Below are positions 5,761 to 57,836 of a DNA stretch of 64,000 nt, piece by piece; position 1 is the first letter of the stretch, and each line of letters begins with the position of its first letter. Where the stretch lies: assembly GCA_964017185.1 (NCBI GenBank), contig OZ024869.1, positions 8,516,501-8,580,500 on the forward strand, read 5' to 3'. The notes under the pieces were generated by a model. The model was not told the DNA's origin. It did no database searches and saw only the letters and a list, made by a program, of their open reading frames with translations. This DNA is from Rugalucina vietnamica. Its lineage: Eukaryota; Mollusca; Bivalvia; Lucinida; Lucinidae. The translations under genes were made by a program, and so were the position numbers.

Positions 5761-7140
5761 CAGAAAAAGATTCCCACTCCAAAAACCGAGGTGGGAAAAA
5801 ACTAAATTGACAAACAGGTATGTATACCATGAAAACAATTCACGGACGTATCGCATTGGAACGATCAGTAATATAAAATTACTGGCGGGCTTAAATCGAT
5901 TTTACAGGTACCTAACCTCACCCTCAGCTTCTGCAATGGTTCACAACATTTAGTTAGTTGTTCGGTCCACGTGGTGAATCGCTAACTAGTCATTGAATTA
6001 TCATGGACAAACAAATAAATCACGATAAACACCATGATGAATCGAAAACAAGGACTCACAGCCCGCCAAATAACTTATTAACTCCGGAGCAAAAGAAAAA
6101 CCAGTTGAACCCCGGTGGACCAAGCAACAGACAAGAAGCTCCGGCTCCAACCAACTAAAATAAAAATCTTTGTGTCGGGGCCATCATAGAGTCTGACGTC
6201 CGACCCACCGGCGTGCAATTAAAGAAGGCAGCATAGTTATCAACCATGATTGGGTTAAAAACTAAGCATGCAGCCTGTCGCATAACATTTAAGTTATATT
6301 CTGTGCGTCTGTAACATGTAATGATTTTTCTGAATTGAAAAAAAAATCATTCCTTCCTATAAGTTTCTTGAATTTATAAACCAAGTCACCATAAATTTTT
6401 GGTTCCGAAAGGCCCTCGCGTAAAAGGGTCTTTAGCCCAACAGTAAATTTAGAAATCAATTCACAGAGGCTGCGATGAAATTTAGAAAATGTTTTTTCCG
6501 AAGTTTAGGATACCGATAGCCCTGCTGGAGAAATTTGGCTATTAAACATTTATTTCGCGCATTTAAGTCCGCAACATGATTGTAGACTCTAGCAAACCTA
6601 ATAAGTTGCGAAATGTATACACCATAAGAAGCACGGCGAGGAACGCCACCTTCCAAAAACGGAAAGTTTACTATTATCAAAATCAAAGTCATCGCGTTTA
6701 TCATAAATTTTAGAAGAAGCAAATCCATTTGCAATAGAAAGATGTAAGTCTAAATGAGGGCTTCGGTATCTGTGTTGTTTGCTTTATTTAACTGTAGTTT
6801 AGGGGGATATTTGTTTGACCATGCCTGTCAATGTTCAAAAGGTCATCGAGGTACCTAGAAGTCGAATTAAATGCCTCGATAACATCAGTTTAATTGTCAA
6901 GGTTAAGAGAAGAATCCATGAAATCTCTTTCGCAGCAGTATAAAAATAAATCAGCTACGAGAGGGGAGCAATTTGTTCCCATCGGAATTCCAACAATTTG
7001 TTTGTATAACTTGGTTCCGAATCTAATATACATATTATCTGGGAGATAGGATAAGGCGTCGCATACATTCTGAATTTTTGAAGACAATTTTTTTATCGTC
7101 TGATCATAGATATGATTTCCGAAAGCATCATAGACTCGAG
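5761..7140 (-). pseudogene. Penelope-like element, decayed reverse transcriptase and 3' end
   Basis: On the minus strand, fragments of one reverse transcriptase are split by frameshifts. At 7087-6890 lie an SSKIQNVCDALSYLPDN segment and the active-site block GIPMGTNCSPLVADLFL. At 6734-6456 lie VNFPFLEGGVPRRASYGVYI and QGYRYPKLRKK. Below 6230 lies the 3' untranslated part shared with the copies at 36 and 41 kb (the TCCAACCAACTAAAAT region, hairpin AGTAAT..ATTACT at about 5867-5885, terminal CCCAC hairpin at about 5771-5795). It stops inside the terminal module at 5761. Family: PLE retroelements use a telomerase-like RT; the assignment is by recalled similarity. Confidence 0.75.
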
Positions 7141-13612: not shown

Positions 13613-13671
<59 letters not shown>

Positions 13672-16600
13672 GAAGCCACACTAGCTGACTGGTATTGTGC
13701 GCAAACTCTCTGGTCGCAATCTGGTAACAGCCAGTGTACTCATCTCGTCGCAGGTTGCATATCATTCCACTAGATACAACCATAACAATAGACAACAGTG
13801 CAGCTTTTGAGTTGATATTGTAAGGGTATAACACTGTGCAAATAAGATGAACAATAATATAAATGCATTACTACTGTCTAAAACAATCATAAACAAAACT
13901 ATCTCGCCATAATATCTAAAATCAACTTTAATCGGCAATATATTATAGAAACATATTGTACAGCTATTTTCCATGCTGTAGCCACTCCGCAACGCTATAA
14001 CCCGACTGCAGTGTATTCCATCTACTTCCAGGCAGTTTCCATCAGTCTCGTGCGACGACTTTGCTGACAAGATCACGTCTCAGATGAAGTTATGGCAAAC
14101 GGCAGACAATTGCCAACAGGGAGGAGAAAAGTGTTTATATGAGGTAAGAGCCTTTAACTTTTAATATTGCAGCACGTCACGTGAACACGTTTCTGTGCCA
14201 TTCGTTCATCACTCATTTCCTATTCAAGAAAATATATGTCATTAATGCGGCTTTCACACTAGAGCGCGATCTGTTACGAACGCCGCGATTGACAAATAGC
14301 AGCTAATCGGGACATTTTGCCAAATTTTGGCGTTCTGATACGTTCTGTTGCGAGTCGTTGCGCTTTGATACGATCTGTTCTGATCTGATACTATAGGGTG
14401 GCGATCGGTCGAAATTTGGTGACACGATATTGGTCCCGGATATATACGATTAGTTGCGTTCCGGAAGGATTATTACGATTAAGCTCCCGATTCTAATGCG
14501 ATCTGACACGATTGTCACGATACTTGACCGCGATTTGATACGAATTGATACGCGTAGATGCGTTCTGGTACGAGTCTCAACAACTGATACGATGTGTTGC
14601 GATTGTTAGCTTGACTTTTTGGCGATTGTGGTCACGATTGTGTCACGATGAGACCGCGATTGGTATATATAGTTCGAAAACAAACATATACCTCATTACG
14701 GTTTTAATATCTGAAGACGAAACAACATTGATGATGGAAGGAGCTGAGAATGTCGAGAATGCGACATTTGCAATGTTAATGTATGCTTCTGATAAAGCCT
14801 TATCCTTCCCCTTCCTACCCCTGCCTCTGCTGCCCTTTCCTGGCATCCTTCAGAGTTCTAATTAATACTGAAAAGGACCGTATATTGGTGTTTACTTTTT
14901 TAATTGTTGATCAAAGAATAAAACTCATTTATTTTGCCCGATTGATAACTCGTAACAGATCGTAAGCATCCGTGGCAGAAGCGTGGCTTGTCGTGTCTCA
15001 TCGCATTTACTCGTATCAGATCGTATCCTATCGCGAGTCATCCGTATCGTCTCGTAGTTAATCGGGCCAGGCAATTTTTCTCGAATCGTGACAGACCGTA
15101 AAAATTCGTAGGAGTTCGCGACTCACCTCAACAGATCGCGGTGTTTTGGTCGATCCCGATCAACGCGATTTAGGAACAAGATGAGATACGATTTATTGCG
15201 GTTTGTTACGATGTCATACGATCTGATGCGATGGTCACGATAGTCCGCCAATCGTGGTAATCGTGGAAAATTTTTTGGCAGCCAAAAAACTTTCAACGAT
15301 TAGCCCGATTATTACGATTGGATTATATACTTCGAAAACAAACGTATACCTCATTACGTGTTTAATCTATGAAGACGAAACAACACTGACGATGGAAGGA
15401 GCTGAAATTGACGAGAATGCGGCCTCTGATGGCCTTTTCTGGCATCCTTCAGATTTCTAATTAATACTGAAAAGGACCGTATTGATGTTTGCTTTTCTAT
15501 TGTTTATCAAAGAATAAAACTCATTTATCTTGCCCGATTGATACATATAATTCGTAACAGATCGTAAGCATCCGTGGCAAAAGCGTGGCTTGTCGTATCT
15601 CATCGCATTTACTCGTATGATTATTCGCATCCTCTCGTAGTTAACAATTCGTAGGAGATCGCAACTCTTCTCAACAGATCGCGGTGTTTTGGTCGATCAC
15701 GATCAACGTGATTTAGGAACAAGATGAGATACGATTTGTTGCGATTTGTTACGATGTCATACGATCTGATGCGATGGTCACGATAGTCCCGCCAATCGTA
15801 ATAATCGTGGAAAAAGTTTTGGCAGCCAAAAAACTTTCCACGATTAGCCCGATTATCACGATTGACATAAAGATGTGATGCGATTTGATTAGACGGAATA
15901 TTTCCATCGGTATTCCGTTATACCTCTCCATACATGTCACAGGAGAGGAGCGAGGTCACGAAGTGTATCGGAGTGCAGGTTAGCCAGCTGATCTACGATT
16001 TGATAAGATTGGATACGATAGTTCCGATTGGTCCACGATTAAGACCACGATATAGTGGAGATGGAAACGTCAGGATTTTGAGACAATCCTGCATTTCCGG
16101 ATACAAGTATGAGACTTTCAGAATATGTTCTTGAAACATTTTTCATAAATATTTTCTCGCTAGCCATCTTAAATTTTTCCATTTTCAAGGTGGCTAACGC
16201 AATTTTCAAGATGGCCGTCAAAATCATTAGATTTTACGATTTATTGACAAACTATACTGATTGAATTTGTAAATGGGTGGAATTTATTGCACAACTGATA
16301 GTCATTGCTTAAACCATTGCTCTGGGACTCATCATCGGGTCCAACAATGCCATAAAACTGCTTTTGTAAAAATGTATTACCGTGAATTGCCATAATTTAA
16401 GCATCACTCAACAAGTACACACTCATAAGGATTATTACAGGCCCCTTTGTGAAAAGACACAAGATATAAGATGATTTAAGCATTACAAATATTTCTTATA
16501 ATATGCTCGACTGATCTTGTAAAGTTGAACAACTGATATTTTCATATTTTTAATTATAGTAGTGTAGGGGTATATTTAGCTACAGTCAGCATGTACGGAT

Positions 16601-19600
16601 GGTCAATATTGTATTTCTTCTTTGTATTGAGTCAACATTTTTTCAGTCATGTCTGCACTGACCTAATACTACCTGGGTATCATTCAGTTCTATGGTAAGT
16701 TAATGTGTCTACCTCAAGGACACAACACGACAACCCCACTGGTGTCCAAACCCAGGACCTCTCGGTGCAGAGTCCGAAGCCCTACCGCAAGGTTACCACA
16801 CTCACTAGGTCAAAATTGTAGGAGCACATAATATTTAACATGGATTTATATAAATCACCTTTATTGAGCTGTCAATATTGTCTCCCAAATACTGAGATGA
16901 TAGTGATACCATTGAAGATTGGCAGTGGAATGTTCACCCCTTCATTGGTAATCCTGGGTCGGCTGGACAACAGCGTAGAACAGTCACTTGTTAGTCACAG
17001 TTTAGCAGATAGCTGTACTGGGTGAGGCTTAGTTTGTAGAGGTTATGGAAAAAGAGTTGGTGATGGCTGTACCTTCCTCTAGACAGTGTGGAGCAGATAT
17101 GGGGTAATCATAATCAGTAATTTAATCATCAGTAATCGATTACAATTTTTTGAATAATCATTGATAATCATTAATCACAAAATTTCAGAGTCATTTTAAT
17201 CATAATTCAATCATAATCATGTTTTATTAGGCCAGTAATCATGATTATTTATGATTACTTTCATGATTACAGCAAAAATAAAATATCACAGTTCTAAAGG
17301 AAAGCTCAGTCTCAAGATTGTATTGAACTATTGATGCTGCTTCACACTGGGAGTTATGAACCTCTGTGTCATGCATTTTATATAGGAAGCACTGTTCAAG
17401 GCTGGTCTGATATAACCACGTTCCTAGGAAGGCTGTATAGGAACTCTGTAGCTTTTAACACATACATTGTAAGTGGTTTGCTCTGACAGTCAAATAGCAG
17501 CTCATTGTTCAGGCATCTAAAAGCCCGGCAAATTCTCAGTCTTTGATGGAAGATGAAAAATGAGACAAGGCAAACATTATGAACAAATGTTGTCCTGCTT
17601 AATTGTTCAAGTGTGAACAATCAATTATAAACTGCACAAACAGTCAATTATCTCTCATTACTCAAACTCTACTCAAAATTTCTCAACTCTTGAATAAAGA
17701 GTGTCTTAATTCACTGACAATGGCTTTAAAGGTGATGTGTGCGAAAAACAGCAGTGATTTTATGAAAAGTCTTTTTAAATGCAGACATGGGACTGAGTTT
17801 TTTCATGCTGGTGAGAATTTTTTTTATCTTAATCACAATGCAGGAGGTTTGAACAGGTTATATTTGCATTTTTTTAGTAGAAAATTAAAAAAAAAAAAAA
17901 AAAAAAAGATGAAGAAGAGAATAAGGTTCACAGATCCAGGTACTTCTGTCCCTCTAATTAAGTACTTAACATCCCAGCATGATCATAGCTGTTGACTTGG
18001 ACGTTAAGAATCAGTTTTAAAAAAAAAAAGTTAATTTTGAATTCAGTGGCAGAGCTGGGTAATTGCCAGGGCAGCGTCATGTGTTTGGTTTCTGTTGTAC
18101 CAGAGAAAGTGCCTAGATCTGGGTAAACAACAAAAAAAAATACCCATTTCCGGATTTAAAATAATATTAAACAACAAAATGTAATCAGTAATCATAAAAG
18201 TAATCTGATTACTCTGTCAAAATAATCATAATTTAATCAATTACTCTTGAAAAAATGAGTAATCATAATCATAATTTAATCATAAAGACTCCTGAATAAT
18301 TGTAATTTAATCATTACTGATACCCCTGTAATCGCCCCATGTCTGGTGTGGAGGCTTTGCAAATGAAACAGAAATTGGTTGTAAGCTGTCGGGATTGTCA
18401 TATGGCATCAATGACCACCTAATGACTTCGATACTTCCTCTGACGGGCAATAAAAATGTCAATATTGTCCATGTCATACACCTACCATGATCAGTCCAGA
18501 TGAAGTGATATACAAGTAAACATCATGGATGCATCTGCGATCCAAACACGGGTGTCTCATAAACTATGTCACAGTGTGGAGAAAAGATAGACACGGTGCC
18601 AGAATTACAAATGTAATGTGGAGCAGAGTGCTGGACAGATTATAGACTGGTGTCATCAAACACAATCCTTATAGGCGACTTTTAGGCACGGAAGCTCCTT
18701 AGAGACTGAGTGTCACGAAATTAAACCAAGATAGAATGGTACATTTGCATACATATTGGTGGAATAAATCTCAGTTTGGAGGACCTAGAAGAAAACTGGA
18801 CCATTCTGCAGCTATAGATTTAAGGTCATCCATCTCGAAAACTCAAATACTAGTTTGATGAGAATTATTAAGATGTTCTGAGGATTCAGAATCTCGAAGA
18901 ACAACATAAGCATAAAGATTATACTAGTTCCGAATTCAAGAAGACAAACTAGCAGCAATATTTATCAGTCTAGATAAAAACTCAGAGACATGCAAGACTC
19001 TTGACTGAGAAAAAAAGTAGAAGAAATTCAGTTTGTTTGCTTGATAAATACCAAACTGTCATGGATGCAAGACAATAAAATATAAAACAAAATCCTTTTG
19101 AAGCAGTTTAAACGATTAAGCAGAGGTAGTATGGGTTAAATTGCGCAATGTCGGGTACTGAATCGTCATCAGGGATCCTTTATAAACCGGCGATGATAGC
19201 CAGAAAAATATACTTCAAATTTAAAACAAATGCGCAAGGGAAGTTTAAAGGAGTCTCAAACAGTTCAACAAACTCTCATCTGGCAAAATTCCATGTTCAA
19301 ATGCAAGTTTCGCTGTAGTCTGGGGGCTACAGAGACTGAGAGGAGGAAGGAAGAATTCCGACATCCATCTATACATACAGAAAGGAAATCCTGAAGTCTT
19401 TGACAGACATCCATCTATACACACAGAAAGGAAATCCTGAAGTCTTTGACAGACAGGATTTATTCCGGAAAGTCATTGCTGATTCAGAGATGACAGGAAG
19501 ACAATTGATGATTTTCATATAGCAAGAAAACTTGGTGAGAAATGTCAAGAACAGAAAGCAGATATATGGCGCTTGTCAACTTCACCAAAAATTTAAACAA

Positions 19601-34250: not shown

Positions 34251-34984
34251 CTAATTGTAAAAGTAAAAGTAAAAGATGAAGAGGTCGCCTTCCCTAACTT
34301 GGACAACTTGCGACGGAAGCAGTGTGTAAAAAATGTATTAAATTTTGCGCCACAGCTTTTTTCACTTCCTCTGACCAAAGTCGGTATACACTTTGGTCAT
34401 GTCAGAATGTGTGCGACGCCTTATCCTATCTCCTTGATAATATTTATATTAGATTTGGGACCAAGTCATACAGACAAATTGTTGGAATTCCGATGGGTAC
34501 AAATTGCGCACCTCTCGTAGCTGATTTATTTTTATACTGCTACGAATGAGATTTTATGGATTCTCTTAACCATGATAATCAAGCTGATGTTATCGAGGCT
34601 TTTAAAAGTTATTCCAATTACGAGTTTCATGTTGTAAAAGTAAAAGTAAAAGATGAAGAGGTCGCCTTCCCTAACTTGGACAACTTGCGACGGAAGCAGT
34701 GTGTGAAAAATGTATACGATTTTGCTCCACAGCTTTTTTCACTTCCTCTGACCAAAGTCGGTATACACTTTTCAAAGTTATTCCAATTACGAGTTTCATG
34801 TTGCATGGCTTTGTGACCATCCGAATATAATGGCTGTTCACTTAGCCCTCTGCATTTACTTGTTCTGTCCAAGCTAGCACTGTGACCACCTAATACCTTC
34901 AATAGCTGCTCGCTCTGCTTTCCGTTATTCATGTTAAACGTTGGTATCTATGTTTAGTATTTTCTTAATATGATTTCTTATTTC

Positions 34985-35341: not shown

Positions 35342-36044
35342 TTTAATTCCACATCTAGGTACCACGATGACCTTTTGAACATTGACAACCCTTATTTTGA
35401 AGGTATTGTCAATCAAATTTATCCACCTGAACTTCAGTTGAACAAAGCTAATATCTCAGATACCGAAGCCCCCTTTTTAGATCTACATCTTTCTGTTGCA
35501 AATGGATTTGTTTCTTCTAAAATTTATGATAAGCGCGATGACTTTGATTTTGATATAGTAAATTTTCCTTTTTTGGATGGTGACGTTCCTCGTCGTGCTT
35601 CTTATGGTGTATACATTTCGCAACTTGTTAGGTTTGCTAGAGTCTGCAATCATGTTACAGACTTCAACGCTCGAAATAAATGTTTAACGGCAAAACTTCT
35701 CCAACAGGGCTATCGGTATCATAAACTTCGAAAAACCTTTTCTAAATTTTATCGTAGACACTATGAATTTATTTCCAAATATGATGTTGGGTTAAAGACG
35801 CTTTTAAGTGAGGGCCTTTCGGAACCTGAATTTTATGGTGACTTGGTTTACAAATTTAAAAAACTTAAAGGAATAAATGATTTTTCTTTTCAGTTCAGAA
35901 AAATCATAACACGTTACAGACGTATAGGTTATAACTTGAATGTGATGCGACAGTCTGCATGCTTAGTTTTTAACCCATTCATGGTTGATAACTACGCTGC
36001 CTTCTTTAATTGCACGCCGGTGGGTCGGGCGTCAGACTCTATGA

Positions 36045-36320
36045 TGGCCCCGACTTAAAGCTATTCATTTTAGTTGGTTGGGGCCGGAGCTTCTTGTCTG
36101 TTGCTTGGCCCACTGGGGTCCAACTGGTGTTTTTCTTTTGCTCCGGAGTTAGTAGGTTATTCGGCGCCCAGGGATCTCCATCGTCGGGCAGCTTACTCAA
36201 TCTGTGAGTCCTGGTTTTTGATTCATCAGGATATTTATCATGATTTATTTGTTTGTTCTTGATGATTCATTGACTAGTTAGAGATTCACCACGAGGACCG
36301 AAGAACTAACTAAATGTTAT
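36045..36320 (+). other. PLE 3' untranslated region
   Basis: Downstream of the RT stop; repeated in inverted orientation at 5970-6220 and 41460-41720. Contains TTGGGGCCGGAGCTTCTTGT and GATTCACCACGAGGACCGAA. Confidence 0.6.
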
Positions 36321-36677: not shown

Positions 36678-36974
36678 CTATTAAAAGCGATAGTCATGTA
36701 TACAAGAATCAGGGGGAAATATTTGTGTGGAAGACTAAACAATATTGCATGAGTACTTTACAAGCGTCTACGTTACCACGCATCGACTTATAAAGCTAGA
36801 TTTATAACAAATTATAGTTATTGTACTACCACTGAACTTACTAAATTATTATCCTCCTGTCTTATGCTATCAAATCTCATGTCATAAGCTACTGTTAACT
36901 AAAAATAAAGATTGGGTGCTCAGTAAACTGAAGTGTAGAGTATGGCAAGCCGTTTTACTATTTATTATGCTAAT

Positions 36975-38105
36975 TAGATATCTTGAATAGTAAATAAGAT
37001 ATCTTAATTAGGATATAAGATATCTTATTTAGCAATAAAGATATCTTCTTTATCAAAAAAGATATCTTATATCCTAAATTAGATATCTTATATAGTAAAG
37101 AAGATATCTAATATGCTAAATAAGATATCTTATTTGATCCCACAATAAAGATATCTTATATAGCATATAAGATATCTTATTTGAAAATTTAGATATCTAA
37201 TATACTAAATAAGATATCTTATATACTAAATAAGATATCTACTATACCTAAATAAGATATCTTAATTACAAGATTGATTAAGATATCAACTTTGGTAAAT
37301 AAGATATCTTCATTGCTAAACTAGATATCTTAATTAGCAAATAAGATATCTTATATAGCAAATAAGATATCTAAATTGGTAATTAAGATATTTATAGTGG
37401 TAAATAAGATATCTTATTTAGGTATAATAGATATCTTATTTAATATATATGATATCTTATTTAGTATATTAGATATCTAAATTATCAAATAAGATATCTT
37501 GATTAAGGCTATAAATAAGATATCTGTATTGGTATAGTATATATCTTATATAAATATCAGAAACCAATTGTGATTGGGTAAAACAAATAAGATATCTTAT
37601 ATACTAAATAAGATATCTAATTTGTTAAACCTAAATAAGATATCTAATATAGGATATAAGATATCTATTTTTGTATATAAGATATCTTATTTGTCAAATA
37701 AGATTTCTACCTAAGCATAGTAGATATCTTATTTGTGAATGTAATTAGGATATCTTATATGTTGAAGAAGATATCTTATTTGACAAATAAGATATCTTAT
37801 ATGATAAAATAGATATCTAATATACTATTTTAGATATCTTATATGTTAATTAAGATATCTTATTTAGAAAAAAAAATTATAGATATCTAATTTATCATTT
37901 TAGATATCTAATTTGTTAAACAAGATATCTTTATTAACAAATAAGATATCTTACATGCTATATCAGATATCTATATAATTAATTAAGATATCTTAAATAT
38001 TTTTACCAATAAGATATCTAATATATCAATCAAGATATCTTATTTGTTAATTTAGATATCTACATTAACAAATAAGATATCTTGTTTAGTTAAAAAGATA
38101 TCTTA
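36975..38105. repeat. AGATATCT palindrome array, left block
   Basis: About 48 copies of the 8-bp palindrome AGATATCT, most extended to AAGATATCTT, spaced roughly 20-30 bp, so not a fixed-period satellite. The spacers vary in sequence (TATACTAAA, TTTGTTAA and so on) while the palindrome is kept. Confidence 0.9.
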
Positions 38106-39411
38106 TATACTATCGTCTCAGCTATGATCAGAGGCAAATTTTTGTCTCACCTGTTTTCGGGGGTTTTTTGTCAAAGTTGTACCCTTGGCTTTGTTCCACT
38201 TTTTCTAAAATCTGTTGGTCATACAGTTTCGGAAAATATATACCTTTTTATCATTCTATGCCACAGAATTCCGTTATATCCAAAACATTATTTCTTCTTC
38301 AAAAATCATGAAAATTTAAGAAAGGGGAGCTAACTTTTTATTTAGGAATCGGATTTGGCCGAAACATAATATAATTAAAGCTGATGTGTATACCCTGGTT
38401 ACAAATAAGTTTGGACAGAATAAGATTAATAGCTAGCTAGAAAAAAAGAAAACTTTGTTTTCGCCATTATAACCCTATGGGACCTATCCGTTGCCATGGT
38501 AACAAGAGTTTTAATCCGTTCCACCCTATATTCTAATAAAAGTTTTGTCCTGATAAAAGTATGCTTCATGTGAAATTTGATGGCTCTGGGTTTATTGGTT
38601 TAAGAAATTTTACACTTTTTGTTGTCGATTTTTTCTCTACGGACAGGACATTTTTGACCGAAATAAAAATTCCATAATTCTGCATTGTCATTGGCGTTGG
38701 TATAATATTTTTCTCATGACAATTATCAGTTCTGAAGACTCCATCTCCCAATGTGGTTTTGAACTTCCAGAAGTATAAGACGTCATAGATGTAATGTATG
38801 GGTTACGGACAGGACACTTTTTCGTTACATTGTCCTCAGTACTTTGGGATATAAATTTATATCCAGCGATAAAAGTAAGCCACACTACTGGTTATTTTTA
38901 CTGATTAGGTATGTCCAAATATTGTTTATAACCCATTGAAAGTAGAATTGGATGTAACAGTCTGACTTATCAGGCATGTCACTCCGTTCTCACTTTAAAA
39001 TATCTCAGTTTGGCACACGTCATCAGCTTTAGTAATCATGGCATAACTCAAAAACAAATAGTCGTAGCCCATTCAAATAAACGGCAGAATAAACGGGATA
39101 TGATCGTTTACTAGCCACAAAATATTTTATATGCGCATAAAGTGTCAGTTTCAATCCCTCATACCCATAAAAAGAAGCAATTTTCAAGTGAGACAGTATA
39201 ACACCTGTTTTGGGGGTATTTTTGGCTATATAAAATTATACTGTGAAAAAATGGCTTGTCCAATCAATATGATATTTTTAGGCCAGTTAGAATTAATTGA
39301 TCTTGACATCCTGCAAGTCAACTTATGTATATTAGTGTTGACGTTTTCATTACCCAACCGCATAACACTTAGTAAATTTAAAATTGTCATCTGATCTTAG
39401 CTGACCCGTAT

Positions 39412-39568
39412 ATAAGATATCTTAATTGACAATTTAGATATCTAATATAACAAAACAGATATCTTATTTGCTATATAAGATATCTTCTTTATAATAGATA
39501 TCTAATAAAATAAAGTAGATATCTTATTTATTAAAGAAGATATCTTATATACAATATAAGATATCTGT
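39412..39568. repeat. AGATATCT palindrome array, right block
   Basis: Eight copies in about 160 bp next to the right terminal inverted repeat, with the same spacing as the left block. The array is therefore subterminal at both ends, but very unequal in length. Confidence 0.9.
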
Positions 39569-39908
39569 TTGTTTGAATAAATAGTAAAACGGCTTGCCAT
39601 AGTAGAGGGTTCCGTGCGACGAGCTTGTCCACATTTTTCTACTCTGTATACAACATTGCCATATAACCTGATTAAAGAAAAATTACTCGATTCGATAAAG
39701 TGGACCTTCAAAGGAGCAGTAAAAAAGTATGGTTCACTTTATTTGGCATGTAAATACAGTAAAGCTTTTTTCACTTCCTCTGACCAAAGTGTCAGAATAT
39801 ATGCGACGCTATAGTAGATTCGGAACCAATTTATATAGATAAATTATTTGAATTCCGGTGGGTACAAATTGTCCTCCTCTCATAGCTGAATTATTTTATA
39901 CTGCTACG

Positions 39909-40306
39909 AAAGGATCAAACCTTTATATTTTATTTGCTATTACTGCAGCTGGTGTTGTGCCGTGTGGCGGCCGTAAAAGTCTCCCCGTACATCATCCATA
40001 GTGCAGATTATATTTTTATTTCGGTCCTTTGAGATCAGTTAAGATATTCAGAGTGTTCAAAACACTCACGTTTAGAAACATACTTCTAAGCAATGTTTAA
40101 AAATATTTGACCCAATTTAGGAATATGTCTTTGATTTAGTCTCCTCGTGAAGATTCTCGAAATTGCAGCACAATATTCTGGCGTTCGTTGCCGGTTTAAA
40201 AAGGGCTACTGATGAGGGTTCATTACCCGAAATTGCGCAATATAGTCCATACTATCTCCCTTTGAATGTTTTTACTGCTTCCAAAGGATCAAACCTTTAT
40301 TTTATT
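39909..40306 (+). mobile_element. Retrozyme-like insert with hammerhead ribozyme
   Basis: The insert interrupts the PLE RT between CTGCTACG and CATGGATTCTC. It begins and ends with the same 24-26 nt sequence AAAGGATCAAACCTTTAT..TTTTATT (39909-39934 and 40283-40306), one repeat period of 374 bp. A related sequence also follows the decayed hammerhead at 19 kb, so the direct repeat seems to belong to the element and is not a target duplication. That is the layout expected if slightly more than one turn of a circular template was copied. No ORF. Metazoan retrozymes are small non-coding hammerhead elements of a few hundred bases; the assignment is inference. Confidence 0.65.
40203..40248 (+). ncRNA. 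Hammerhead ribozyme, canonical core
   Basis: Stem I GGGCTA (40203-40208) pairs with TAGTCC (40243-40248, one G-U). CTGATGA lies at 40209-40215. Stem II GGGT (40216-40219) pairs with ACCC (40225-40228) around loop TCATT. GAAA lies at 40229-40232. Stem III is the self-complementary ATTGCGCAAT (40232-40241). Predicted cleavage is after A40242, the H17 position. Every core nucleotide is intact. The very short, palindromic stem III matches hammerheads described in Penelope-like elements and metazoan retrozymes, which are thought to work as dimers. Confidence 0.88.
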
Positions 40307-41066
40307 CATGGATTCTCTTAACCATGACAGTCAAGCTGATGTTATCGAGGCCTTTAATTTGACGTCTAGATACCTCGATGACCTTTTGAACATTGACAAT
40401 TTTATTTAAAGGCATGGTCAATCAAATTTATCCACCTGAACTACAGTTGAATAAAGCCAACACCACAGATATCGAAGCCCCCTTTTTAGATTTACATCTT
40501 TCTGTTGCAAATGGATATGTTTCTTCTAAAATTTATGATAAATGCGATGACTTTGAACTTTGATTTTGATATGTTGTAAATATTCCGTTTTCTTGTTAGG
40601 TTTGTTAGAGTCTGCAATCATGTTGCGGACTTCAACGCGCGAAATAAATGTTTAACAGCCAAACTTGTCCAGGAGGGCTATCGGTATTATAGAACTTTAT
40701 TGTGGTTCTATTTGTTTTGTGTTTTGGAGTCGAATTGTTGTGCTGTTTGAACATAAAGTACGTAACTGAGTGGCCGCTTATTTTGAAATAGCTGCTCACT
40801 CGGCTTACGATATATTTTCTAAGTATAAGTACCTAATAATTGCCAATTTAGTTTTTTTCCCACCTCGGGTTTTGTGGTGAGAATTTTTGATTGCGCCTTT
40901 TCCTGATCATTGCCTACTTGTATCTTTCAAAAAACATTTTCTAAATTTTATCGCAGACACTATGAATTGATTTCTAAATTTAATATTGGTCTAAGGAAGC
41001 TTAAACGTAAGTGCCTTTCAGAGCCAGAATTTGATCGGAGCCGAAGAACTAACTAAATGTTGTGAA

Positions 41067-48150: not shown

Positions 48151-49943
48151 CACGGCTAACAAACCTTTAAATGCGTAACCGCGGTTAAGAAAAGAAATCC
48201 GATTCATGTCCTTCCGGTTTCGCATCAGATGACCAACAAAAGGTAAACAAACTTTTGCAGCTCGTGTTTCCGAGTAAAATATTTCGATTCGAAGACAAAT
48301 ATTATAATTATCTCAATGCTATTTTATTAGTTAGACATTGCTATATTTGGACCCCAAAGGATTTCCAGAAATCTTTCTTTATAATCATGATTTTTATTCC
48401 CTACCCCAAAACACGTGTTGGGATTGCATTGTACACGACAAAAATGTGGGTCAGTCGCAGAGATATTTTTAGATTTCCGCTCATTACGTCCATATTAACG
48501 GAAAGCAATACAGTGCGCAGATGATTTTAACATTGTATGAGGTCTGGTGACTGTTTCGTTGCCTCTGGCCAATGCATTCTATGCATATGTGGTTAAAAGC
48601 TCTGTCAACATTTCGGTTACGAATTTAATCATTAGAATGATAGCAATATAATCATTATAGAACACATGTATTACAGTTTTTGTTTTTGTTAATTGTTTTA
48701 CGCTGAAGATTATTGTCACAATAAGTGCTTACTTAAATTTGGTGTGTTTGTGATATTTGCAGTGAAAATGTTTGATATAAAATAATACAAATTGTCTACG
48801 AAATACATGTAATACAATAGTTCACATGTATGATATTCCTGTTCATGAAGACGATTTTACAGCATTCTGTATACTTTAATTTGCTTTTTCTTGGTTTTAT
48901 GTCTTTCAAGACGCTTTACAGGGAAATATTTACATTTTTATTGCAATCGCCCTAGATGAAAGTATCTTTCTTGATGTTCTTCAATTCCCAATGAAAACAT
49001 TAAGTCACGTGATCTAGAGGCCACGCCTATGGGCGGGGCGACGTCAAAACCCATCCAGTGACGTTGTTTGTTAACTCTTGTTGTCGTGACGTTGGTTGCG
49101 TATCACCATGACGTTAGGCGCGAAAATTTGACGTTTTGGCTGTTCCAAAATTACGTTAAGTGGGATTTAATGTCAAATAACATGAAAATGAACGGTGATG
49201 TGCGTAATTAAAAATCTGATACTTGATTGATAATATAAAACGTAAATATAAGTATTGAAATTCAGATTTTAGCTTTCACTGGATGATGAAAAACATTAGC
49301 TGTTTTAATGTCTCCGAGAAGCCCTTCGGGCTTCACAGACATTAAAACAGCCTAATGTTTTTCATCATCCAGTGAAAGCTAAAATCTGAATTTCAATCCT
49401 TAAATAAATACCAAAACTTGAAAAGGTTGAGGTTTTCAAACGTATCTTGAAATATATCCTTCATATTTTAATGATTAAATGCGTACCCATCTTTTCCTTC
49501 CCTTCAAATCGATAATGCCGGACACTTACACAACGAAATTCTGGCACAGACATCAGATGCAATTTAGTTAATACATATTTGTAAATTTGTCGTGGAACAA
49601 TCACTAAAATTTGATATTTACCAGCAAATTGTCCAATTTTTAGTTGTATTTCGCCGACTTTGGCCTTGTTGGAACACCAGGTTCGAAGAAGGGAATAAAT
49701 AACTCAAAGACCATCAAATTATTTTGCGAGCTACTTTGGTGCTGACTTACAATAGTAAATAAGTGACAAAATAGCATTCATAGATAATCGATATATTTCT
49801 GTACTAAAATATAATCACCAATCGATCCTAGTAGTGTATGTTTTGTTTACCTTTTCTTGGTCTTCATATGCGCGACCGGAAGGGCGTAAATCGGATTTTC
49901 TTTCTTAACCGGCGGTTACGCATTTAAAGGTTTGTTAGCCGTG
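48151..49943. mobile_element. 1.8 kb element with about 100-bp inverted ends
   Basis: CACGGCTAACAAACCTTTAA (48151) and its inverted partner ending at 49943; similarity runs about 100 bp through the AACCG..GTTAAGAAA, TCCTTCCGGT and AAAAGGTAAACAAA regions. TAGTG flanks both ends (48146-48150 and 49944-49948). The interior has a 60-bp perfect-stem hairpin (49254-49397) and a cluster of TGACGT sites. No transposase frame. Confidence 0.75.
49254..49397. repeat. 60-bp stem hairpin
   Basis: Arms 49254-49313 and 49337-49397 pair fully except for one bulged C. The 23-nt spacer forms its own GAAGCCC-TTC-GGGCTTC hairpin. Confidence 0.9.
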
Positions 49944-55700: not shown

Positions 55701-57836
55701 AGTACATGTTGGTTTGTGTCAGACCTGGTCGGAAATCCCAAACACCGTGTTTCGCATGTCAAGGCTCATTATGCCCCCAACTTCGAAGAAGTTGAGGGGG
55801 CATATTGGTTTGGGTCTGTCCGTGCAGTCAGTCTGTGAGGCAGTCTGTGATGCATGAGTAACGCTTTGCACTTGGTCAGGAACCGTTAGAGCTAGGATCT
55901 TGAAATTTGGTATGTAGTTTGTTTATGAAAATTAAGAGGACCTGTGTTTTTTCTTTCAGGTAAATTCAAGGGGCCAGGGGCCCATTTTGTAAGAGTTATT
56001 TCCCTTTTTAATTCTTGATAAAGTGAATAGATAGTGGGTACCTTGTGTGCGCAACCTCTCCTACAGTTTTATTCCGATTCTCTTGAAACTTTACAGATGT
56101 TGTGACCATGCTTTGAAGATATGCACGTGGTTTGGATATAATCCTCAGATGAATTTTTGTTACTTTTTCGCAATTTGAACTTAGCCATTTTTCGGGCATT
56201 TTCACAATGAAAGTGAATGGGCAGTCGGTACCTCGTGTGCGCAACTCCTCCTACAGTTTCATGCTGATTAATTTAAAACTTTACATGTGTTATGGGCATG
56301 GTCTGAAGATACGCATGTGGTTTGGATATAATCCTTGGATTATTTTTTGTCATTTTTTTGTTTCACAATTTGAACTTAGTCATTTTTTTCGGACATTTTA
56401 GTGAATGGATAGAGGGTACCTTTTGTGCGCAACTCCTCCTACAATTTAATACCAATACTTTTGAAACTTTGCAGAAATTGTGACCATGCTTTGAAGATAT
56501 GCATGTGGTTGGGATATACTCATCAGATTAATTTTTGTCACTTTTTTTACAATTTGAACTTGGTCACTTTTTGGACATTTTTACATCTTGAAAGTGACTT
56601 ACCAGTTGGGGGCACAGTGTTTCATAAACACATTTTTTAGTTTTATGAACCCTTTCAAGGTTAAGTTACTGAAAGAGGGTAAAGAAATTCCCCCTGAGTT
56701 GGAAGAACAGATGAGAGAAGGAAAGATGAAGGAAGCACAGGGGAAAGAAGAAGTTGAAGGTCTTAATGCTGAACTTCAGACACTCAGAGATAAGGTAATG
56801 GGGATTCATTCATAAATTGTTGCCTGCTTGTAATATCATTTGAATAACATATGAGCCGCCTTGTGGGAAAACCAACAATGTGGTTTCTGAACAGGTCTGA
56901 CACAAACCGGCCTGTACAGTCACAGAAGATGGCTAGAAGCTTGAAATTTCGGATTTAAGTAGAAGAGGAACTGTACTATCCGAGTAGCGAAAACAAAGGC
57001 CCTGATCAGCTTCGCGGTTACTGCGAAGCTGATCTGCGTCTTTGTTTTTGCATATGCAGATTGTTGGTTTTCTCATGACGCGGCTCATATGAAGAAAATC
57101 TCTCTGGGATTTCCTACCAGGCTTGACACAAACCAGTTTGTGCAGCCAAAGTTGATAGCAAGAGACAAGCAATTTTGGTTTGAAGAAAAAATGCATTGAC
57201 CTTTGAAGTGGAAAAAAGAGTTGATCAGCAGCTTCATGACTATGGAACATCTGATATATGCCTTCACTCTTGCATACAAGCAAAAAGAAGTATTTTATAT
57301 TGCTGAAAATTAATTGACTCATGGCACATGGAAAACAACTTCACACACTACTTGCTAACAGCAATGACACAGGTCACTATATTCTTAAAATCTAACAAGA
57401 TATCAGCAAACTATTTCCTGCTTTGGCAGGTGGGTCTATTCCTTCTTGTTGGGAAATAAATTCCTGCTCTGACAAGCCAAACAGAAGCCTCCATGGCGCA
57501 GAGGTTATGTCACTTGCCTTGTAATCCAGGGGTCGTAGGTTCCATCCTGTGCTTCTCCAGTCTGTCGGTTGAGACTCTATACTGAGGTCATGTCTCTATA
57601 TGACCTTAGTTGTTGGTGGGACGTTAAACCCCAAATCAACCAAACAACCTGACAACAGTTTCCTATACCTTGAACGATGATTCCTATTTTCACAGGTGAA
57701 ACATCAAGACAGTTTACTCCAGAGATATAAAGAGATCATCAAATCTAACAAAGAGAAACACATACAAGTGATAGAGGAGAGAGACTCACTACAGAGAAAA
57801 CTAGAAGATAACCAGATGGAACTGGCTAAGTTACAG
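52745..57836 (+). CDS. Golgin subfamily A member 4-like (golgin-245) protein, internal exons
   Basis: Six phase-0 exons with AG/GT borders: 52745-52981, 53352-53606, 53887-53934, 54775-54930, 56660-56794 and 57696-57836; 324 codons. The first two are Ser-rich (SRSRTSSISSVTSDSSFF), like the low-complexity head of GOLGA4. From YQYIQKYQRRATRYKAKF on, the chain is a coiled coil with the blocks TQSQDRAFRRISELKEQIQL, EKGEFIKVLQMQVKLLKE and LLQRYKEIIKSNKEKH, which follow the vertebrate golgin-245 order (SQSQDKSLRRISELREELQ, VLQTQV, LKRCKETIQSHKEQ). Golgin-245 tethers vesicles at the trans-Golgi, bound by a C-terminal GRIP domain that would lie beyond the window. The gene continues past the BEL/Pao insertion. 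Confidence 0.85.
53976..54141 (+). mobile_element. Short hAT-type MITE
   Basis: Ends CAGGGGTGGATCCAGG and GTCCGCCACTG, interior GGGGTTTGAGCGAACCCC. Second copy of the 31087-31238 element. Flanks do not show a clear 8-bp duplication. Confidence 0.65.
54430..54745 (+). repeat. Foldback repeat in golgin intron, copy 1
   Basis: Shares TGCTGTTTTCCAGTG..ATAACGTCAT, TATTAACACTTT..GGGAATATGTAA and TCTTACACTC with copy 2 at 55300-55615. It ends in a hairpin whose arms are TCTTACACTCACGATCATTT and its complement around GGCAGAATGC (about 54655-54745). Confidence 0.7.
55110..55250 (+). repeat. SINE-type 3' fragment
   Basis: ATGTTGTGTCCTTGAGCAAG, then ACATTAACTTT and TGACTGGGATGTAAAACCAC with A-rich end; shares words with the SINE tails at 57600 and 46960. 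Confidence 0.5.
55300..55615 (+). repeat. Foldback repeat in golgin intron, copy 2
   Basis: Same family as 54430-54745. Here the left palindrome ATTATCATATGACGT..ACGTCATATGATAAT is intact, and the right hairpin AAATTTATCAAAC..TTTGATAAATTT is partly decayed. Confidence 0.7.
55760..56640 (+). repeat. Tandem diverged repeats of about 180 bp
   Basis: GTGCGCAACTCCTCCTACAG, AAACTTTACA, ATGCTTTGAAGATATGCA.GTGGTT and CACAATTTGAACTTAGTCA recur about every 180-190 bp at roughly 56040, 56225 and 56420. Likely part of a repetitive element in this golgin intron. Confidence 0.65.
56847..57092. mobile_element. Bivalve-type foldback MITE
   Basis: CATATGAGCCGCC..GTGGGAAAACCAACAAT at the left and TTGTTGGTTTTCTCATGACGCGGCTCATATG at the right, with degenerate inverted interior and a perfect hairpin GATCAGCTTCGC..GCGAAGCTGATC (57011-57041). 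I recall this ATGAGCCGC/AAAACCAAC family as widespread in bivalve genomes. Confidence 0.65.
57487..57655 (+). repeat. tRNA-derived SINE
   Basis: The head GCCTCCATGGCGCAGAGGTT has a tRNA-Thr-like anticodon arm (CTTGTAA), B box GGTTCCATCC, and tail GTTGGTGGGACGTTAAACCC followed by an A/C-rich end. Inserted about 40 bp before the last golgin exon's polypyrimidine tract. Confidence 0.7.

Follow-up and report, generated by a model that had tools for sequence, protein, structure and literature searches.

The window examined here is a stretch of 64,000 nt from the bivalve Rugalucina vietnamica, and it contains at 40203-40248 a short motif resembling a hammerhead ribozyme (HHR). This raises the questions whether the motif is more than a chance resemblance, what kind of repeat carries it and how such a repeat could have reached its present place.

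The hammerhead motif and its relatives

Type I HHRs are defined by a CUGANGA ... GAAA core, U16.1 and an H17 other than G. The letters of the window motif agree with this definition throughout, and by its letters it is a complete, intact-looking type I hammerhead. Re-reading confirmed all core positions named in an initial annotation (CTGATGA, GAAA and A40242 as H17) as well as the three stems drawn there:

40203..40248 (+): predicted type I HHR, from letters, descriptor, covariance model and covariation in relatives
between A40242 and T40243 (+): predicted cleavage site, H17 being A40242
GGGCTA 40203-40208 / TAGTCC 40243-40248 (+): stem I with one G-U pair, from letters
40209..40215 (+): catalytic core strand CTGATGA, from letters
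40216..40228 (+): stem II, GGGT 40216-40219 / ACCC 40225-40228 with loop TCATT, from letters
40229..40232 (+): core GAAA, from letters
40232..40241 (+): stem III, self-complementary ATTGCGCAAT, from fold energies and palindrome switches in relatives

Within one molecule, stem III has 3 bp (A40232-T40241, T-A, T-A) and a GCGC tetraloop (40235-40238); between two copies the whole palindrome ATTGCGCAAT gives 10 bp. No extended stem I for a loop 1-loop 2 contact was obvious by eye.

A descriptor composed after the motif had been seen (stem I of at least 5 bp, CTGANGA, stem II, GAAA, stem III, U16.1, H17 not G) found 40203-40248 as its sole match in the 64-kb window and matched 0 of 200 dinucleotide shuffles. 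The bare CTGATGA..GAAA pattern is not significant in the window (3 matches, 1.83 expected). The lack of a covariance-model match had been set beforehand as a refuting result, and at the curated Rfam threshold the outcome went against the initial annotation: no Rfam hammerhead reached its gathering score, with none at E<=10 over 2.5 kb and none at E<=5 over 64 kb. The best match, RAGATH-1-hammerhead (RF03152) on 73 nt alone, covered 40199-40247 in the same core and stem register with 16.5 bits (E 0.64), and by the gathering score of 56.3 bits the motif is not a member of that family. The Rfam test seems insensitive to such HHR forms, since a predicted viral HHR with an identical core (L070 5648-5671) is likewise without an Rfam hammerhead match. 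As a separate observation, three predicted type I hammerheads, each different, lie among small ORFs on the minus strand of this viral contig (L070, IMGVR_UViG_3300017747_001556; 13616-13639, 14909-14932 and 15715-15738), and one of them has a 24-letter core identical to that of the window HHR; triple hammerheads in a phage-like region are among the findings described in PMC3088659.

A covariance model trained on 39 distinct copies from other parts of the genome scored the window HHR at 78.5 bits (E 1.5e-22). Since the 24-letter core of the window HHR had also served to select these copies, and the first of them agrees with it in every letter of the HHR, the score speaks for kinship with the family more than it probes the fold. 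We weighed the comparative evidence above the sub-threshold result of Rfam.

A search of the genome (1.09 Gb, 47 contigs) with the 24-letter core, allowing up to 3 mismatches, revealed 11,360 matches (5,488 + 5,872), and the exact 37-letter stretch through stem III was found 802 times. The core of a sister family, C, gave 10,244 matches (5,040 + 5,204). The reversed patterns gave 0 matches for either family, and the two families together amount to about 21,600 core matches if no place was counted twice. The family-C HHR has stem I GGGTCA/TGGCCC, core CTGAAGA, stem II GGCT/AGCC with loop TAAGT, and a palindromic stem III (CCGCGG or CCATGG); its stems differ from those of family A, to which the window copy belongs, by compensatory changes.

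The family-A model yielded 118 matches including weak ones, from 68 loci (without the window locus, L008, and with L069), which gave 70 distinct rows. The alignment of these rows was fitted to the structure and the copies are related, so that it is biased towards the structure. Paired cells made up 91.7% compared with 87.7% in shuffles, 33 cells were changed on both sides compared with 8.1, and the covariation score was 0.196 compared with 0.130; each of these three values was reached in 0 of 500 shuffles. Two further measures did not rise above the shuffles, namely pairs with change on both sides (6 vs 4.7, 113 of 500 shuffles as high) and further pair types (19 vs 17.6, 131 of 500). Within the narrower family-A set (A1) no measure exceeded the shuffles; covariation appears only once divergent copies are included.

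The stem III tips were counted in both families. In family C, GTAGCCGAAACCRYGGTATGGCC gave 2,737 matches; of the first 100 in the list, 60 had by eye GC, 28 AT, 8 GT and 4 AC (odds ratio 52, Fisher P 1.4e-13). The family-A loci showed GCGC 79 times, GTAC 8, GTGC 5, GCAC 5 and others 3 (P 9e-6), GTAC being rarer than both single-change forms together and commoner than the 1.7 expected from independent changes. Both P values overstate the association, as the copies are related and some are tandem neighbours; CpG decay can also yield the single forms. This palindrome switching in two families favours dimer pairing and suggests that stem III may pair between two copies; PMC3088659 and PMC7229834 already describe palindromes in stem and loop III that might allow dimers. 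The suggestion that such ribozymes cleave as dimers thus gains from the double changes that preserve the palindrome; against it stand the possible 3-bp stem III with GCGC loop of the monomer and the efficient cleavage that PMC7229834 describes for most invertebrate retrozymes.

A functionless hammerhead-like sequence arisen by chance, for which the lack of an above-threshold Rfam match would speak, is hardly credible in view of the unmatched shuffles, the thousands of genome copies beside 0 reversed-pattern matches and the compensatory changes in the stems, in agreement with the original judgement.

The repeat that carries the ribozyme

On the first contig, 68 family-A loci (L001-L068) were picked by exact core. 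With up to 4 substitutions allowed, at least two HHR cores in a row were found in 25 of these 68 and in 5 of 20 family-C loci, likewise picked by exact core, and of the 43 spacings from one core to the next in the two families, 24 measured 372-375 nt. The unit is 374 nt long in family A (from 18 tandem units) and 376 nt in family C, which lies within the range of ~170-400 nt for tandem HHR units of metazoan non-LTR retrozymes. The 78 mapped retrozyme pieces consist of tandem units and single pieces, the longest copies reaching 3.8 units. GC content is 0.374 in the unit and 0.372 in the window copy, below the 50% used as a retrozyme criterion, and no ORF of at least 60 aa overlaps the window copy. 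The circular fold of the unit has an energy of -92.6 kcal/mol compared with -72.5 (sd 4.9) for 100 shuffles (z about -4.1).

By its anatomy the host repeat, whose non-coding units measure about 374 nt and often lie in tandem, is a metazoan-type non-LTR retrozyme, and the window element joins the metazoan retrozymes as a new member. The initial annotation was right in placing the HHR in a metazoan repeat, here a dispersed one; of the hosts it had named, the metazoan retrozyme fits and the Penelope-like element does not, the RT sequence next to the window copy belonging to a separate interrupted element.

The closest known systems, likened by description, are the metazoan non-LTR retrozymes, notably those of the mussel Mytilus galloprovincialis. 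The account of Cervera and de la Pena 2020 (PMC7229834) gives units of ~350-390 bp, about 5000 HHRs, two families and circles, compared with two families here that total about 21,600 core matches, if no place was counted twice. The satellite retrozymes of newt and axolotl, in the same account, have units of 330-350 nt, a very short stem III with a palindromic tetraloop and better cleavage as dimers, and are alike in these respects; in contrast, the copies in the loci read here are dispersed, mostly with a single HHR and 5'-truncated, and stem III is one or two pairs longer.

Comparison of the family-A unit with family-C copies revealed a block of ~108 nt at unit 57-165 (about 39925-40032 in the window copy) with 89-94% identity (L023 101/108, L051 80/87, L021 96/108, L025 96/105), other parts showing 64-86%. 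The block does not stand out in copies of an in-between type (L024 95/109, L011 69/81). It lies directly downstream of the presumed copying start, and a promoter or an RT-binding part would be guesses at its role; a stable fold was not found for it (z -1.05). A B-box-like GATCAAACC at unit 45-53 was considered as a Pol III signal and dropped, being absent by eye from the family-C unit.

The window copy and the neighbouring RT element

Alignment of the window to the retrozyme unit and to itself revealed two retrozyme pieces and an interrupted RT element, here called X:

39913..40304 (+): retrozyme copy, 1.05 units of 374 nt with one HHR, from alignment to the unit
39810..39912 (+): left part of interrupted RT element X, matching 34445-34546 and 6923-7030 (-)
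40305..40697 (+): right part of interrupted RT element X, matching 34553-34605, 35342-35728 and 6501-6922 (-)
19074..19221 (-): second, older retrozyme piece, 75% to the unit, its end at unit position 66, from alignment to the unit
19133..19178 (-): degenerate HHR in the older piece, GACA replacing GAAA and stem I broken, covariance model 31.4 bits, E 1.9e-7

The edges of the window copy are uncertain by a shared AAAG (39909-39912) on the left and by TT (40305-40306) on the right. No TSD was found at this copy and a few host bases were lost. X runs through uninterrupted at two other places of the window, 34445-34605 and, on the minus strand, a region near 6.9 kb.

Mapped by its 3' part, X was found in 28 of 68 loci including the window locus, in either orientation and at differing distances; the other 40 lacked it within about 1.5 kb. 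X and the retrozyme are separate elements, because one lies nested within the other in L050 (taken together with L069, the piece upstream of it), L021, L023, L010 and L044. In L023 and in L050/L069, X entered the retrozyme at one and the same site (unit 217-219); the lengths of X differ, so these two insertions are apparently independent. Template jumping between X and the retrozyme was considered for L050, which looked like a chain X-retrozyme-X-retrozyme, and was rejected: L069 shows ordinary nesting, and the arrangement in L021 and L023 reads as that of a retrozyme into which X had inserted.

The HHR could also belong to the pseudo-LTR (pLTR) of an autonomous Penelope-like element, with the adjoining RT fragment as part of the same element. 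The window copy does have RT sequence on both sides, and Penelope-like elements bear minimal type I HHRs in their pLTRs, as summarised in PMC7761336 (after Cervera and de la Pena 2014 and Lunse et al. 2017); weak helix III and presumed dimers are further likenesses to those HHRs. Yet the flanking RT sequence is continuous without an insert at 34445-34605, the distance and orientation of X vary where it is present at all, the two elements are nested in each other in L050 and L069, and none of the X copies in the window is matched by the HHR descriptor. The loci read show the RT element as separate, as interrupted or as nested, and an HHR unit flanking an RT/GIY-YIG ORF was not seen in them; unlike the Penelope-like HHRs, the present one sits in a free non-coding unit and not in a pLTR beside an RT ORF. 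We regard membership in a Penelope-like pLTR as very improbable and retain the retrozyme as host.

Several other features of the window were recorded. SECIS_1 (RF00031) matched with 39 bits (gathering 35) at 36033-36100 (+) and 6128-6195 (-), overlapping the X stop codon, and the corresponding region of another X copy gave a sub-threshold SECIS_1 match of 24.9 bits. Naiad-type Penelope elements of clams are selenoproteins; Naiad elements were reportedly studied by Craig et al. in 2021. Selenocysteine at the in-frame TGA of X (34547-34549) was rejected, Arg being present in relatives P0006, P0016, P0053 and P0094, and a decayed Arg codon appears to be the simpler reading. Strongly self-complementary arrays at 36972-38106 and 39409-39566 consist of a 21-bp repeat that contains a GATATC palindrome. 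At 49248-49403 there is a long hairpin with well-paired arms, perhaps MITE-like, with a MIR2593 match of 60 bits (below the gathering score of 96.2). A 190-nt tandem repeat in three copies occupies 56022-56581 and 56882-57090, and the repeat at 56882-57090 was found again near several retrozyme loci at varied distances.

Copy ends and a proposed cycle

The 78 retrozyme pieces come from the 68 exact-core loci, of which L030 holds a duplicated pair. Their 3' ends fall at unit position 58-76 in 65 cases, ~66 nt past the cleavage site, and 31 of these 65 exceed one unit. The remaining 13 end at 317, 302, 219, 274, 2, 16, 340, 155, 42, 13, 88, 7 and 78; at least one of them (219, L023) is interrupted by X, L033 stops right beside the cleavage site, at position 2, and a further three end at 7, 13 and 16. 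The 5' ends are variable and scattered over the unit. Family C showed the same picture, with 15 of 20 loci ending at 60-68 and the other five at 43, 40, 27, 306 and 12, the last set by the end of the fetched stretch. One piece in L014 (316-444) runs from unit 50 to about 178 into an A-rich stretch with no end at 66, and was perhaps made by another machinery.

Core-bearing copies that end at ~66 cross the cleavage junction, so the anatomy of these copies suggests that their template was a circle or a multimer and not a linear self-cleaved unit. The common 3' end together with variable 5' ends would fit target-primed copying of circular or multimeric RNA. In the main-text parts of PMC7229834 covered here we found neither a common 3' end past the cleavage site nor 5' truncation.

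The flank after the retrozyme end ...ATATTTTA showed, in 54 distinct copies, T 0.98, T 0.93, T 0.57/C 0.24/A 0.15 and A 0.48, where the T's may in part be unit-encoded, as the unit continues TTTGC. The flank after the X end ...TTGCCTACTTGTACC is T-rich with A 0.50 at the sixth place in 28 distinct matches; this set was drawn by a 15-letter word, every match with no more than 2 errors being taken, and perhaps includes a few strangers. In three retrozyme copies that lie within X, where the empty site is known, the TSDs are by eye TTTT, TTTA and TTTAG, two of them (L044 and L010) with filler or lost bases; X at known empty sites has, again by eye, TTCAGAG, TTC (twice, at the same retrozyme site) and (C)TTTAT. 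Overall the retrozyme TSDs are weak: at least 5 matching bases were found in 12 of 56 copies compared with 6.2 in shuffled pairs (P 0.01) and at least 4 in 21 of 56 compared with 18.1 (P 0.25), cut-offs other than at least 5 giving P 0.04-0.25. Long TSDs were not found as a rule in the 56 copies.

Taken together, we consider it very probable that the window element is a retrozyme with a cycle of tandem transcripts cut by the HHR, circles or uncleaved multimers as template, and target-primed copying from ~66 by the RT of an autonomous non-LTR element. In such a cycle tandem retrozyme copies would be transcribed, and their HHRs, probably joined as pairs by their palindromic stem III, would cut the RNA into units. 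By analogy with the account of other retrozymes in PMC7229834, a host ligase would close these to circles. The RT of an autonomous non-LTR element would then use a target nicked at TT[T/C]A as primer, begin at the U-rich tract that lies ~66 nt beyond the cleavage site, and copy around the circle, or along an uncleaved multimer, stopping at varied places and leaving 5'-truncated copies. The window copy would represent little over one turn that landed in an RT element; with its single HHR, a transcript would be cut once and release no unit.

The same retrozyme could instead be copied from an uncleaved tandem transcript, with the HHR of little matter for insertion. Copies of up to 3.8 units may come from multimers or from rolling around a circle alike. 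We think this version unlikely, as the HHR stems and palindrome seem to be kept by compensatory change, which needs a use for cleavage, and circles are abundant in related retrozymes as described in PMC7229834.

Which element would supply the RT is a closer matter. The passages of PMC7229834 on mobilisation propose PLEs as candidate mobilisers of retrozymes. In the present genome X is a possible mobiliser, as a candidate only: its junction letters TT[T/C]A (28 matches) resemble those of the retrozyme (54 distinct flanks), both have by eye short TSDs, and X is frequent in the loci (28 of 68). The letters common to both junctions are few, however, and by eye no long 3' tail is shared between X (...TTGCCTACTTGTACCTTT) and the retrozyme (...CAAACCTTTATATTTTA). 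Other non-LTR elements also use T-rich/A sites. That some LINE-type or other element, not X, moves the retrozyme is therefore a reading to which we give slightly better than even chances. We put forward only tentatively, as a possible but doubtful combination, that X carries out target-primed copying of the circular RNA from a fixed U-rich site 66 nt past the cut, while the ribozyme acts as a dimer whose stem III palindrome is selected in trans.

How animal retrozymes re-enter DNA, and by which enzyme, is left open in the Discussion of PMC7229834. The present retrozymes add copies with a shared 3' end, stem III palindromes that switch, and insertions nested in one another. The genome of R. vietnamica may serve as a handle on this question: it offers some 20,000 HHR motifs, two families with compensatory changes, a presumed RT start that the copies share and that is distinct from the ribozyme cut, and nested insertions whose empty sites are known, which would make the ideas of a circular template and of a dimeric ribozyme testable.
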